Source: Lachnospiraceae bacterium
GTDB lineage: Bacteria; Bacillota; Clostridia; Lachnospirales; Lachnospiraceae
Direction of reading: 5' to 3'
Assembly: GCA_017503735.1 (NCBI GenBank)
Contig: JAFVSN010000053.1
Coordinates: 1 to 64,000 of the forward strand
Length of the DNA: 64,000 nt
Under the pieces are notes generated by a model, which had not been told where the DNA came from, did no database searches, and saw only the letters and a list, made by a program, of their open reading frames with translations. The translations under genes and the position numbers were made by a program. Every line of letters starts with the position of its first letter. Positions within the stretch are counted from its first letter, which is position 1. This document shows, piece after piece, positions 50,318 through 54,233 of the stretch.

Positions 50318-50346
50318 TTGACAAGATATGACAGTAAGACTATAAT
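50318..50346 (+). promoter_or_regulatory. Strong promoter of the ABC exporter leader
   Basis: TTGACA (50318-50323), 17-base spacer, TATAAT (50341-50346): a consensus sigma-A promoter. The leader to the first ABC gene is about 250 bases. Confidence 0.88.
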
Positions 50347-50410
50347 ACAACTGTTGTTAAGAAAAGGAAATCGGTAAGACCGAAATATGAAAGAAAGTGA
50401 GGAATGCGAT

Positions 50411-50506
50411 ATGAACAACAAAGGAATGATGCTTGTAACCGTAACAAACGAATATAGTTTATTTGTGCAAAGAACATATGGTATTACCTCATCTTGCCCG
50501 CAATAA
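50411..50506 (+). CDS. Leader peptide of the heterodimeric ABC exporter (31 aa)
   Basis: A short frame (MNNKGMMLVTVTNEYSLFVQ...) begins 8 nt after a GAGG ribosome site and ends in CPQ-stop, 30 bases before an intrinsic terminator. It has no membrane helix. Its codons 24-28 contain GGTATTACCTCAT, which can pair with the 5' half of the terminator. This is the layout of Bacillus bmrB, a leader peptide controlling bmrCD by ribosome-mediated attenuation. A second frame starting at 50404 (17 codons) overlaps it and cannot be excluded. Confidence 0.65.
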   Translation: MNNKGMMLVTVTNEYSLFVQRTYGITSSCPQ

Positions 50507-50550
50507 AGAACGAGTATTTTATATGCGAATACATGAGACCCTGTAATGCT
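50480..50550 (+). promoter_or_regulatory. Candidate antiterminator helix in the exporter leader
   Basis: GGTATTACCTCAT (50480-50492) can pair with ATGAG (50533-50537) and GTAATGCT (50543-50550), giving 5 plus 8 pairs (two G-U) around a 5-nt bulge. The 3' partner is the 5' half of the terminator, so the two structures exclude each other. Confidence 0.55.
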
Positions 50551-50573
50551 GTAGCACTACGGGGTCTTTTTTT
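50536..50573 (+). terminator. Attenuator terminator before the ABC exporter genes
   Basis: Stem AGACCC-GTA-TGCT / AGCA-TAC-GGGTCT, 2-nt loop, followed by seven T residues. It ends 28 bases before the first exporter gene. Confidence 0.88.
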
Positions 50574-50601
50574 GTAGGCAAAATGAGGTTTAGGAGGAGT
50601 T

Positions 50602-52368
50602 ATGAAGAAAGTAAGTTTTTATTTGAAAAAGTATTGGTTTGCATATCTGATCGCGTTTTCCTGTATGGTAGCGCAGATTACCATTGATATGTTAAATCCG
50701 AATGTGACAGTGCGGATTATCGATGATGTTATCGGAAAGGGAGAACGTTCTCTTTTGAAATATTCTCTTTTGATGATGCTGGTGTTTGCACTGGGAAGAG
50801 TGGTGTTCGGATACGCGAAAGAGTATTTGTTTGATATCACCAGTTTTAAAATCAGTGTGGATATTCGGAAAAATTTATTCCGGCACATCCAGAAACTTTC
50901 CGTGAATTACTTTGATAAAAGTAATACCGGTGAAATCATGTCCCGTGTAAAGGATGACGTGGATCGTATTCAGGCAGCCTTCGGCTATATCGGTATGCTG
51001 ATTATTACGGTTATTATCCATATGTCTATGGTAATATTCTGTATGGTACGCATCAGTTTTAAATTGTCCATTATTCCGCTGATTGCGATTCCGATTTGTG
51101 CGGTGTTAGCGATTGTTCTGGAACGGAAGTTGGATAAGGTATACGAAGACATCAGCGAAGAAAATGCGGAAATGAATACGGTAGCGGAAGAAAATCTTGC
51201 GGGTGTCCGTACGGTAAAGGCCTTTGCCAGAGAGAAGTTTGAGATAAAGAAGTTCATGCGGCATAATAAAAAGTATTATGACTTAAATATGCGACAGTCC
51301 AAACTATGGATTCGGTATTATCCGTTCTTTCAAATGATTTCCAAGGTATTACCGATTAGCGCTATTATCATCGGCGGTGTTATGGTAATGAACGGAGAAA
51401 TTACATTGGGTAAGCTGGGTGCGTTTATTGAGTATTGTAATAACGTGGTATGGCCTCTTGAGATGTTAGGGTGGCTTTCCAACGAATTGGCGGCGGCCTT
51501 TGCTTCCAGAAAGAAGATTGATAAGATTTACAATGAGACTTCCATGATAAATAATCCGGACAATCCGGTGGTTTTAGAGAAGGTGAACGGTTCGATTTCT
51601 TTTCACAAGGTTGACTTTGCCATTGAAGGAAAGCGGATTTTAAAGGATGTTTCGTTCCATGTGCCGGCAGGAAATACTTTGGGTATTATCGGTGCCACCG
51701 GCTCCGGAAAAAGCTCCATAATCAACCTTTTGCTCCGGTTGTATGATGCGGACGGCGGTGCGGTTTGTTTGGACGGTGTGGATGTAAAGGAGCTTTCTTT
51801 GGGGCAGTTACGAGAGAGTATTTCTCTCGTAATGCAGGATGTTTTCCTATTTTCCGACACGGTCAGCGAAAACGTAAAGCTGGGCAAAAAAAGCAGTCTT
51901 ACCGGAACAGAAGTGTCGGAAGCTTTGGAAAAGGCGCAGGCGGCCGGATTTGTAAATCGGTTGGAGGAAGGAGCGGATACGGTCATCGGAGAACGGGGCG
52001 TCGGTCTTTCCGGTGGTCAGAAGCAAAGAATCAGTATGGCAAGAGCCTTTGCAAAGGACACGCCGATTTTGGTGTTGGATGATTCCACCTCGGCCCTTGA
52101 TATGGAAACCGAGCGTATGATTCAAAAGACCTTAAAGGAGATTACGGGGATTACAAAGTTAATTATTGCACACCGTATTTCTTCCGTGCGTCATGCGGAT
52201 GAAATTATTGTACTGGAAGAAGGCCGGATTTGTGAGCGGGGAACCCATGAAGAACTGCTTGCAAAGAGAGGGTATTATTACAAAACCTATCAGGCACAGT
52301 ACGGAGAATATATGGGTGATTTGCCGGTAGATTCCGTGGTGGCGGAAGTGGCAACGGCAACAGAATAG
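50602..52368 (+). CDS. ABC multidrug-type exporter, BmrC-like half
   Basis: A 588-residue half transporter: six membrane segments (residues about 10-300), then a nucleotide-binding domain. Walker A is GATGSGKSS (from residue 364), the signature is LSGGQKQR (469) and Walker B is ILVLDDSTSALD. The residue after the Walker B Asp is Asp494 where active ATPases have Glu, the mark of the degenerate half in heterodimers such as BmrCD and LmrCD. It is followed after 12 bases by its partner. AGGAGG precedes the ATG. Substrates may be drugs or amphiphiles; this is inferred from the family. Confidence 0.92.
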   Translation: MKKVSFYLKKYWFAYLIAFSCMVAQITIDMLNPNVTVRIIDDVIGKGERSLLKYSLLMMLVFALGRVVFGYAKEYLFDITSFKISVDIRKNLFRHIQKLSVNYFDKSNTGEIMSRVKDDVDRIQAAFGYIGMLIITVIIHMSMVIFCMVRISFKLSIIPLIAIPICAVLAIVLERKLDKVYEDISEENAEMNTVAEENLAGVRTVKAFAREKFEIKKFMRHNKKYYDLNMRQSKLWIRYYPFFQMISKVLPISAIIIGGVMVMNGEITLGKLGAFIEYCNNVVWPLEMLGWLSNELAAAFASRKKIDKIYNETSMINNPDNPVVLEKVNGSISFHKVDFAIEGKRILKDVSFHVPAGNTLGIIGATGSGKSSIINLLLRLYDADGGAVCLDGVDVKELSLGQLRESISLVMQDVFLFSDTVSENVKLGKKSSLTGTEVSEALEKAQAAGFVNRLEEGADTVIGERGVGLSGGQKQRISMARAFAKDTPILVLDDSTSALDMETERMIQKTLKEITGITKLIIAHRISSVRHADEIIVLEEGRICERGTHEELLAKRGYYYKTYQAQYGEYMGDLPVDSVVAEVATATE

Positions 52369-52380
52369 AGGTGAGTTTTT

Positions 52381-54153
52381 ATGGCTAGAAATGCGACAAA
52401 ACAAGACGAACAGATTGTGGCAAAGACCAAACGGGAAACCTTGTTTCGGTTGTTCCGCTATCTGTTCGGATATAAAAAGACCATTGTGGTTGTATTGCTT
52501 TTGATGGCGGCTTCCACAACGATTGTGTTATTGAACCCGATTATTTTGGAACGGGCGATTGACGTACATATCGCAAACAAAGATGAGACAGGTCTTGTAA
52601 AGTTAGGACTGATCGGCATCGGGTTGAATGTATTGCTGATTTTGTTGATTAAACTTCGCATGTATTTGATGGCGAAGGTATCCAATGATGTTTTGGTAAA
52701 TATCAGACGGGAATTGTATGAGCATATCCAGACTTTGGGATTTCAGTTTTTTGATAGCAGACCGACGGGAAAAATTCTGGCCCGTTTGATGGGAGATGTA
52801 AATTCCTTAAAGGATGTACTGGCAAATTGTGTTACTACGTTTATTCCGGAAGCGGTAACGCTTATTGCGGTAATTGTGATTATGATTGTAAAAAACGGAA
52901 AGCTTGGTCTGGCATCCATGAGCGCCATGCCGTTAATGGCAATCGGTGTATGGTTTGTGCAAAGCAAATCCCATAAACGCTGGCAGGTATTCCGGAAGAA
53001 GAATTCCAACTTAAACGCATTCTTACACGAGGATGTGGCAGGAATCCGTGTCATTCAGAGTTTCCATGCGGAAGAAGAAACGGAGGAAACCTTTGATGAT
53101 TTATTAAAGCAACATTACGATTCTTTCGATATGGCGGTTCGTTTTGCGGATGCCTTCGGTCCGGTGGTGGACATCTGTTGGGGAATTGCGGGTATGATGA
53201 TGTACTGGGTCGGTGTAGTGTTAATCGGAAAGGGAGAAGTACAGGTGGGGGCTTTGGTTTCTTTCGGAAGTTACATTGCAATGTTCTGGCAACCGTTAAT
53301 GAATCTCAGTAACTTCTATAACCAGCTTGTAACCAATATTACAGGTGCGGAGCGTATCTTTGAAATCTTAGATACGGAAGCGGAGATTACGGATGCAACG
53401 AATGCGGTAGAGTTGCCGACGATAAAGGGGGAAGTGACGTTTTCCCATGTGTCTTTCCATTATGATGACGACCCGGATGTATTATCCGATGTAAGCTTCA
53501 CGGTAAAACCGGGAGAAACAATTGCCCTTGTGGGCCCGACCGGAGCCGGAAAGTCAACGATTGTCAATTTGTTGTCCCGTTTCTACGATGTACAAAAAGG
53601 AGAAGTCAAGATAGACGGATATAACATTAAGGATGTATCCATTTCCAGTCTTCGCGAGCAGATGGGAGTAATGACTCAGGAAAATTTCCTGTTCTCCGGT
53701 ACGGTAAGGGACAACATCCGTTACGGAAAATTGGATGCCACCGATGAGGAAATCGAAGCTGCAGCAAAAGCGGTAAATGCCCATGAATTTATTATGAAGA
53801 TGGAAGACGGATATGACACAAAAATTAAGGAGCGTGGAGCGGGCCTTTCCATCGGACAAAGACAGTTGCTTGCCTTTGCCAGAACCATGGTTTCGGCGCC
53901 GCGGATTCTGATACTGGATGAAGCAACCTCCAGTATCGATACCCATACGGAATTGTTGGTACAGCAGGGAATCGAAACCTTGCTTGCGGGGCGTACTTCC
54001 TTTGTTGTGGCACACCGTTTGTCCACGATTCAAAAGGCAGACCGTATTTTTGTTGTGGATAAAGGCGGCATTATGGAATCCGGAAGTCCGGCAGAACTTA
54101 TGGCGAAAAAAGGCGAATATTATAAGCTTTACATGGCTCAGTTTGAAAATTAA
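52381..54153 (+). CDS. ABC multidrug-type exporter, BmrD-like half
   Basis: A 590-residue half transporter with an N-terminal six-helix domain (about residues 35-320) and a nucleotide-binding domain. Walker A is GPTGAGKST (385-393), the signature is LSIGQ (489-493; Ile in place of Gly) and Walker B is ILILDEATSSID with catalytic Glu514. The altered signature pairs with the degenerate site of the upstream half, while its own Glu completes the active site, so the two genes encode one asymmetric heterodimer. Ribosome site GAGGTGAG. Confidence 0.92.
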   Translation: MARNATKQDEQIVAKTKRETLFRLFRYLFGYKKTIVVVLLLMAASTTIVLLNPIILERAIDVHIANKDETGLVKLGLIGIGLNVLLILLIKLRMYLMAKVSNDVLVNIRRELYEHIQTLGFQFFDSRPTGKILARLMGDVNSLKDVLANCVTTFIPEAVTLIAVIVIMIVKNGKLGLASMSAMPLMAIGVWFVQSKSHKRWQVFRKKNSNLNAFLHEDVAGIRVIQSFHAEEETEETFDDLLKQHYDSFDMAVRFADAFGPVVDICWGIAGMMMYWVGVVLIGKGEVQVGALVSFGSYIAMFWQPLMNLSNFYNQLVTNITGAERIFEILDTEAEITDATNAVELPTIKGEVTFSHVSFHYDDDPDVLSDVSFTVKPGETIALVGPTGAGKSTIVNLLSRFYDVQKGEVKIDGYNIKDVSISSLREQMGVMTQENFLFSGTVRDNIRYGKLDATDEEIEAAAKAVNAHEFIMKMEDGYDTKIKERGAGLSIGQRQLLAFARTMVSAPRILILDEATSSIDTHTELLVQQGIETLLAGRTSFVVAHRLSTIQKADRIFVVDKGGIMESGSPAELMAKKGEYYKLYMAQFEN

Positions 54154-54168
54154 AATATGGAGTCTGAT

Positions 54169-54218
54169 TTCAACCCTTTCGGGAAAAGTTTTTACCCGAA
54201 AGGGTTGAGTTTTTTTTG
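54169..54218 (+). terminator. Intrinsic terminator of the ABC exporter operon
   Basis: A long stem TTCAACCCTTTCGGG / CCCGAAAGGGTTGA with a 10-nt loop and a run of eight T residues. Confidence 0.92.
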
Positions 54219-54233
54219 TTAATCTTATATAAT
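54205..54233 (+). promoter_or_regulatory. Candidate promoter of uppP-ftsK
   Basis: TTGAGT (54205-54210) at the edge of the terminator, 17-base spacer, TATAAT (54228-54233). Confidence 0.5.

Follow-up and report, generated by a model that had tools for sequence, protein, structure and literature searches.

The DNA examined here, which we call the window, is a stretch of 64,000 nucleotides (nt) from a Lachnospiraceae bacterium (GenBank assembly GCA_017503735.1, contig JAFVSN010000053.1, positions 1 to 64,000 of the forward strand), and our subject within it is a leader that precedes a pair of ATP-binding cassette (ABC) exporter genes and appears to act as a transcription attenuator. An earlier note, made from the letters of the window, had placed at this locus a consensus promoter, a 31-codon open reading frame (ORF) with a ribosome site, a strong terminator and two exporter genes, and every one of these features was found there (Table 1). 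A corresponding promoter is present in all eight leaders of the genus that were compared. The putative leader ORF, whose 31-amino-acid peptide is MNNKGMMLVTVTNEYSLFVQRTYGITSSCPQ, has a ribosome site of its own and contains the segment that we call arm 2 (R2). The terminator sits between the promoter and the first exporter gene, begins 28 nt past the stop codon of the leader ORF, and is absent from the list given by a simple terminator scan of the window. As a whole, the window leader folds better than all 200 of its shuffles (z -3.7).

Walker B sequences ending in LDD in one subunit and in LDE in the other, with the signature LSIGQ in the latter, characterize heterodimeric exporters in which one ATP site is degenerate, and the presence of these motifs in the two subunits suggests that the genes encode such an exporter. 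Relatives of subunit 1 with solved structures include TM287/288, and the matches of subunit 2 include TM_0288 and YheH, which we take to be BmrD. The exporter had been described as BmrCD-like. That description holds for the two half-exporters and the single degenerate ATP site, but the nearest homologues of Bacilli in the plasmid collection are pairs linked to AraC regulators, which need not be orthologues of bmrCD.

Table 1. Positions of the leader elements and exporter genes in the window.
Feature	Positions	Strand	Remarks
Promoter TTGACA-17-TATAAT, sigma-70-type	50318..50346	+	consensus match 12/12
Small hairpin TCGGT-aag-ACCGA in the 5' untranslated region	50371..50383	+	ahead of the ribosome site
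Arm 1 (R1), leader ribosome site GTGAGG and start codon	50397..50413	+	predicted to pair with R2; appears to covary among relatives; GAGG at 50399-50402
Leader ORF, 31 codons plus stop	50411..50506	+	ATG at 50411, stop at 50504-50506
Arm 2 (R2), ORF tail, ACATATGGTATTACCTCATCTTG	50474..50496	+	predicted partner of arm 1 or arm 3; codons 24-28 at 50480-50492
Arm 3 (R3), 5' side of the terminator	50532..50553	+	predicted antiterminator partner of arm 2
Intrinsic terminator (arms 3 and 4) and U run	50535..50573	+	hairpin 50535-50568, -20.1 kcal/mol, then T run
ABC exporter subunit 1, ABC_membrane and ABC_tran	50602..52368	+	Walker B ends LDD, degenerate catalytic site
ABC exporter subunit 2	52381..54153	+	Walker B LDE, signature LSIGQ

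The leader recurs at related exporters. Ten genomes of the genus, that of the window included, were screened with the leader DNA, which matched in eight of them, and a corresponding short leader ORF stands ahead of all nine genus exporters found; G002 has no exporter at E<=1e-20. G008 has the leader as well; its exporter shares its contig coordinates with L031, and the two were taken as one locus. The relatives drawn from GTDB are mostly metagenome-assembled genomes of Lachnospiraceae, several of them from herbivore guts. Within the family, 74 of 397 genomes have the exporter at E<=1e-30, and the family sample consisted of the upstream DNA of 68 of the 72 exporters left after the window and G001 had been set aside. 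A candidate leader lies ahead of 62 of these 68 exporters (61 without L091); the pairing of arms 1 and 2 falls in the best 5% of shuffles at 57 loci, a hairpin with a T run was counted at 54, and both occur together at 50. The exporter is present in 16 of 391 genomes of the class, seven in the family of the window (its own genome included) and nine in four other Clostridia families. A candidate leader was picked by hand at eight of the latter nine, and seven of these reach the best 5% of shuffles. The leader ORFs are 22-58 amino acids long (76 leaders).

The helix that stands out most in these leaders joins the ribosome site and start codon (arm 1) to the tail of the ORF (arm 2). In the window this duplex has a predicted energy of -20.0 kcal/mol, which none of 200 shuffles equals, and it is contained in the minimum-energy fold of the leader. 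Among 83 leaders the mean energy of arm 1 with its own arm 2 is -16.2 kcal/mol, compared with -13.4 kcal/mol for the best mean in 10,000 permutations of whole ORF tails. No permutation did as well after seven close relatives were removed (0/10,000, 76 leaders left), nor within the GAGGT group (49 leaders) or the GAGGC group (24 leaders) taken separately (0/10,000 each). The pairing is within the best 5% of its own shuffles in 69 of 76 leaders and at 1 of 49 control starts, the controls being starts preceded by a Shine-Dalgarno (SD) sequence in open frames of at least 150 codons in the six frames of the window, not all of which are real genes. Counted by column without gaps, the position that follows GAGG and the one opposite read TA in 43, CG in 25, TG in 12, AT in 1 and AA in 1 of 82 leaders, so that the column next to GAGG is T-A, C-G or T-G in 80 of the 82; this column changes 13 times on the exporter tree. 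Two columns beyond, the counts are AT 38, GC 28, GT 3, TG 1 and non-pairing 12, and pairing drops further from GAGG to 48/82 and then 23/82.

The position of arm 2 relative to the codons indicates what is being kept. Arm 2 lies in reading frames 1, 2 and 0 of the ORF in 51, 15 and 9 of 75 leaders, and its presence in all three frames argues that RNA pairing is kept and not one peptide; the surplus of one frame may reflect shared descent. The primary sequence of arm 2 is bound to the genus and the pairing alone extends more widely, since a 26-nt pattern of the genus arm 2, with one mismatch allowed, matches in 2 of 397 family genomes, both from the genus. These observations bear on the idea that the genus peptide tail, FVQRTYG[IM]TSS, arrests the ribosome in response to one drug class, as in erm leaders. 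The C-terminal peptide is indeed similar among the genus leaders, with YGSSSS in L024 and LMQRTYG in L025 as exceptions. The leader peptide is not conserved outside the genus, however, and a ribosome stalled at the tail would cover arm 2 and favour the terminator, so that an arrest peptide of this kind is very improbable.

Arm 2 has a second predicted partner in the terminator. The earlier note had proposed that codons 24-28 of the leader ORF (GGTATTACCTCAT) pair with ATGAG and GTAATGCT of the 5' side of the terminator. This duplex can form in the window at -13.0 kcal/mol, and 14 of 200 dinucleotide shuffles of arm 3 do as well, so the window by itself stands just mildly above chance. The note also named conservation of this pairing in relatives as a check, and here the comparison agreed with it: over 75 leaders, own pairs average -11.6 kcal/mol, while permuted partners average -8.6 and reach a mean of -9.9 in the best permutation (0/10,000 permutations). 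The result is 0/10,000 within GAGGT leaders (45) and 7/10,000 within GAGGC leaders (21), and 25 of the 75 leaders fall within the best 5% of their shuffles. The hairpin nearest to the stop codon was used here, a choice made after the result with the strongest hairpin had been seen; the latter was weaker (15 of 67 leaders in the best 5% of shuffles, and just 9 of 67 in the best 5% when their own pair was ranked against partners other than their own). By these comparisons the predicted antiterminator, mutually exclusive with the terminator, is kept in relatives less tightly than the pairing of arms 1 and 2, and single loci may look weak. As a separate observation, in L104, L106 and L112 a duplex of 11-14 base pairs with a single mismatch joins arms 2 and 3 (TTTACCTCGGG with CCCTAGGTAAA).

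The preference of each arm for its own partner, seen for both helices, is not expected if the hairpin is an unregulated terminator or a 3' end, with an ORF that is either untranslated or the gene of a small functional protein. An ORF of just 31 codons would fit that explanation. The layout recurs ahead of 62 of 68 family exporters and the peptide is not conserved across genera; both points tell against this explanation, and we find it barely credible.

How the position of a ribosome would decide between the helices was modelled by folding the RNA made up to the terminator loop, with the ribosome represented as an unpaired block. In the window, arms 1 and 2 pair when no ribosome is present and when one is placed at codons 7-17; arms 2 and 3 pair when it stands at codon 1 or 3, pair in part when it stands at codon 5, and do not pair with the stop codon in the A site. 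Over 75 leaders the predicted antiterminator forms in 57 with the ribosome at codon 1, in 42 at codon 3, in 21 in mid-ORF, in 18 with no ribosome and in 7 at the stop codon. The loss of the first helix when arm 1 is blocked follows by construction, and the informative part is that arm 3 takes the place of arm 1. The model agrees with the suggestion that a ribosome at the end of the ORF would let the terminator form. A further suggestion, that any slowed ribosome frees arm 2, fits ribosomes at the first codons and fails for those at codons 7-17, where the helix of arms 1 and 2 persists in the model.

Such a slowed ribosome belongs to a classical attenuator of the bmrB or trp style, in which stalling anywhere upstream of codon 24 frees arm 2 and the pairing of arms 1 and 2 is minor, for example merely limiting re-initiation on old transcripts. 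In trp leaders the ribosome site also pairs with a distal segment. The conservation of the antiterminator pairing is compatible with this explanation, as are the 21 of 75 leaders in which it forms with a mid-ORF ribosome in the model, and following ribosomes could cover arm 1 behind a stalled one. Conversely, the pairing of arms 1 and 2 is, by the comparison of relatives, kept more strongly than that of arms 2 and 3, and with a ribosome stalled at codons 7-17 the window exporter is predicted to stay OFF, because arm 2 has a competing partner in arm 1. Mid-ORF stalling therefore seems unlikely as the main signal, while keeping a definite minority share of our belief. Ribosome-mediated attenuation through the antiterminator, as first proposed for this locus, is supported; the stronger half of the device, the helix of arms 1 and 2, was missing from that proposal.

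We consider it highly likely that the leader is a transcription attenuator in which three mutually exclusive helices read the position of the first ribosome on the short ORF, and the folding model suggests that it is probably a three-state attenuator that reads occupancy of the start site. In the proposed layout, the ribosome site and start codon make up arm 1, the ORF tail about 20 nt ahead of the stop codon makes up arm 2, and arms 3 and 4 follow the stop codon. With no ribosome, arms 1 and 2 would form an anti-antiterminator, arms 3 and 4 would form the terminator, and the exporter would be OFF. A ribosome finishing the ORF would leave arm 2 covered or re-paired with arm 1, with the same outcome. 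A ribosome held at or just past the start codon, e.g., by a drug that traps early ribosomes, would cover arm 1 and leave arm 2 free; arm 2 would then pair with arm 3 before arm 4 is made, the terminator would be avoided, and the exporter pair would be transcribed. Both helices are supported by the comparison of relatives and appear to recur at related exporters; that the ORF is translated, the kinetic order of the steps, the inducing drugs and the removal of those drugs by the exporter are what we infer from this pattern.

A leader of this design might sense a shortage of amino acids or a general stress on initiation instead of antibiotics, since a start-site sensor would likewise react when initiation complexes are held up for other reasons. 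Residues 2-8 of 76 leaders have no single dominant amino acid, though Asn is frequent, and the controlled genes are exporters, as with bmrCD and lmo1652. Both points make a general stress sensor improbable in comparison with a sensor of drugs that hold ribosomes at the start site.

Several results weigh against the start-site reading. The tree test of compensatory changes gave 7 pairs for the first column (3.5 the same way, 3.5 with no difference, 0 opposite; median p 0.25) and 4 independent pairs for the second (2.0 the same, 0.1 opposite), and is too small to be significant alone. The leader of each locus was taken as the best pairer of arms 1 and 2 among a few candidate ORFs, and because of this choice the signal for that helix is somewhat inflated. 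For the antiterminator, 50 of 75 leaders lie outside the best 5% of shuffles, and the pairing is weak at several loci (e.g., L025, -6.1 kcal/mol, with 153 of 200 shuffles as good). The leaders are not uniformly specific for the start site, given that arms 2 and 3 pair in the model without a ribosome in 18/75 leaders and with a mid-ORF ribosome in 21/75. At equilibrium, all modelled states of the full window RNA favour the terminator, and antitermination must therefore be kinetic, as in known attenuators. Finally, the leader was not found at 6 of the 68 family loci and at 1 of the 9 loci of other families.

The composition of the samples defines these counts. No leader was assigned to L052, L056, L059, L066, L070 and L085 (L085 has 7 nt upstream, L066 has 394). 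Leaders were chosen by hand, with no terminator required, at L041, L042, L051, L061, L080, L098 and L105 and at ten class loci. L091, whose pairing is at chance level (110/200), was left out of the tests of both helices and is still counted among the 62 of 68; L067, near chance (79/200), was kept in all counts. The antiterminator test also leaves out L101, which has no GAGG, and the hairpin-less loci L042, L061, L069, L080, L098, L105 and L116. In L120 and L117 the distance from the end of the leader to the start of the matched exporter is 532 and 341 nt. Among the weak DNA matches, L009-L011 were covered by the ORF scan only, L012 belongs to the G004 locus, and L020 was not a leader when read.

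Other features of the region were noted in passing. The small hairpin of the 5' untranslated region keeps a stem of 4-5 pairs in eight folded genus leaders, with paired changes such as GGT/ACC, GAC/GTC and GGC/GCC. Between terminator and exporter, L003, L005, L006 and L007 have additional GC-rich segments that the window lacks; by eye these contain inverted repeats and resemble intergenic repeat insertions. About 110 nt past the exporter pair begins a BacA/UppP gene (Pfam PF02673, 54264-55127), with a promoter-like site ahead of it at 54205-54233.

The leader was also sought at other exporters. An ORF scan of nine other exporter-type upstream regions of the same genome, drawn from 15 other matches to PF00664 (ABC_membrane) of which several are second genes, found no leader of the GAGGTAA or GAGGCAG type. 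At L129 a 73-codon ORF with a TTG start ends 144 nt from the end of the upstream segment that was scanned, and its start region pairs at -17.6 kcal/mol; at L125 the ORF is far upstream and its start pairs at -18.8 kcal/mol. In the plasmid collection the best 5000 records are all below 60% identity to the exporter, and among these records the nearest exporter pairs of Bacilli lie beside AraC regulator genes (Enterococcus, L133; Listeria, L138). An ORF scan ahead of the L139 and L140 exporters found no such leader. The AraC-linked pairs in Bacilli suggest that control of this type of pump may have shifted between lineages.

If the proposed mechanism is correct, gut anaerobes of a large group detect drugs that target the ribosome through one recurring RNA device placed before a multidrug-type exporter, and the inducible tolerance of commensals would be partly explained by it. 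From the way arm 1 is coupled to the start codon it is predicted that drugs that trap initiation induce the exporter and that mid-ORF arrest does not. A model of the leader with paired-change support could become a new Rfam family. Searches of Rfam with the window leader and with eight further leader loci gave no match at the gathering threshold; nine matches, all below their own gathering scores, were taken as chance.

Among known systems, the bmrB leader of bmrCD in Bacillus subtilis is the one to which this locus had been likened. It is described as requiring leader translation, as responding to lincomycin, erythromycin and chloramphenicol, and as controlling a heterodimeric ABC exporter through a terminator, an antiterminator and a predicted anti-antiterminator (PMC4191407). 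A leader ORF with this set of structures ahead of a heterodimeric ABC exporter, and the logic of ribosome-mediated attenuation, would thus be common to both. The likeness does not reach the architecture: the bmrB ORF is 53 amino acids long and all three predicted structures lie at nt 60-162, with the terminator inside the ORF (PMC4191407), whereas in the window the ribosome site and start codon serve as arm 1 and the terminator comes after the stop codon.

Rli59 (Rfam RF01484), which precedes lmo1652 in Listeria monocytogenes, also combines a small ORF, a terminator and an ABC exporter and is reported to answer lincomycin, erythromycin and chloramphenicol (PMC8079631, PMC7154746). Its ORF differs from that of the window, and the window leader has no match to the RF01484 covariance model, while the Rli59 copy in L155 (Listeria monocytogenes NZ_CP030101.1) scores 226.3 bits. 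In L155, the one copy examined, the ribosome site can pair with the ORF tail at -15.0 kcal/mol (25/1000 shuffles), and the tail pairs weakly downstream, at -3.7 kcal/mol. The accessible text of the reviews PMC8079631 and PMC7154746 does not mention a pairing of the Rli59 ribosome site with the ORF end. The L155 pairing hints that the start-site/ORF-tail layout may reach into Bacilli.

A further group of leaders is built around very short upstream ORFs (uORFs). In the vmlR leader of B. subtilis, the anti-antiterminator hairpin contains the uORF(MIN), and drugs that stall initiating ribosomes are described as freeing the antiterminator (PMC9226507). Its three-codon ORF lies within the hairpin with a single-stranded SD sequence ahead, and the gene encodes an ABCF protein and not an exporter (PMC9226507); in the window the 31-codon ORF would itself be the loop between the arms. 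The cplR leader of Clostridia has a 5' hairpin that sequesters a uORF(MRI) (PMC10201436), and in Rli53 of lmo0919 an anti-antiterminator lies over the uORF (PMC8079631, PMC7154746). Both resemble the window leader in a 5' hairpin or anti-antiterminator that overlaps the uORF and in ribosome-mediated attenuation by a terminator, but their ORFs have three residues, and cplR and lmo0919/VgaL are ABCF genes and not heterodimeric exporters (PMC10201436). The three-codon uORF of the vmlR, cplR and rli53 leaders is not what the window has, its ORF being 31 codons long.

A survey of premature terminators of the Naville and Gautheret type describes ABC-leaders, attenuators before ABC transporter operons, and one of them, in Lactobacillus gasseri and L. 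johnsonii, precedes an operon for multidrug export (PMC2965389, Figure 4b legend). For this attenuator the accessible parts of that survey describe neither a leader ORF nor a helix involving the ribosome site, and its origin in lactobacilli is a further difference from the window leader. The portions available of an RNA survey of 26 genomes (PMC8632094) report no attenuator before an exporter.

The attenuation logic is thus already known from bmrB, Rli53/Rli59, vmlR and cplR, and the layout of the leader and the Clostridia-wide set seem undescribed as far as searches of an open-access library and of Rfam show. We are evenly divided over a broader proposal, that these leaders constitute an unnamed and distinct Clostridia-wide class of attenuators that measure the occupancy of their own start codon, dedicated sensors of initiation-trapping drugs that guard the exporter in most Lachnospiraceae having it. 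The chances also seem to us balanced that, throughout such a class, the entire ORF is the loop between a strand of ribosome site and start codon and a strand of last codons. Set beside the known systems, what seems new is that one strand of the anti-antiterminator is formed by the ribosome site and start codon and that its loop takes in the complete ORF, 22-58 codons long.

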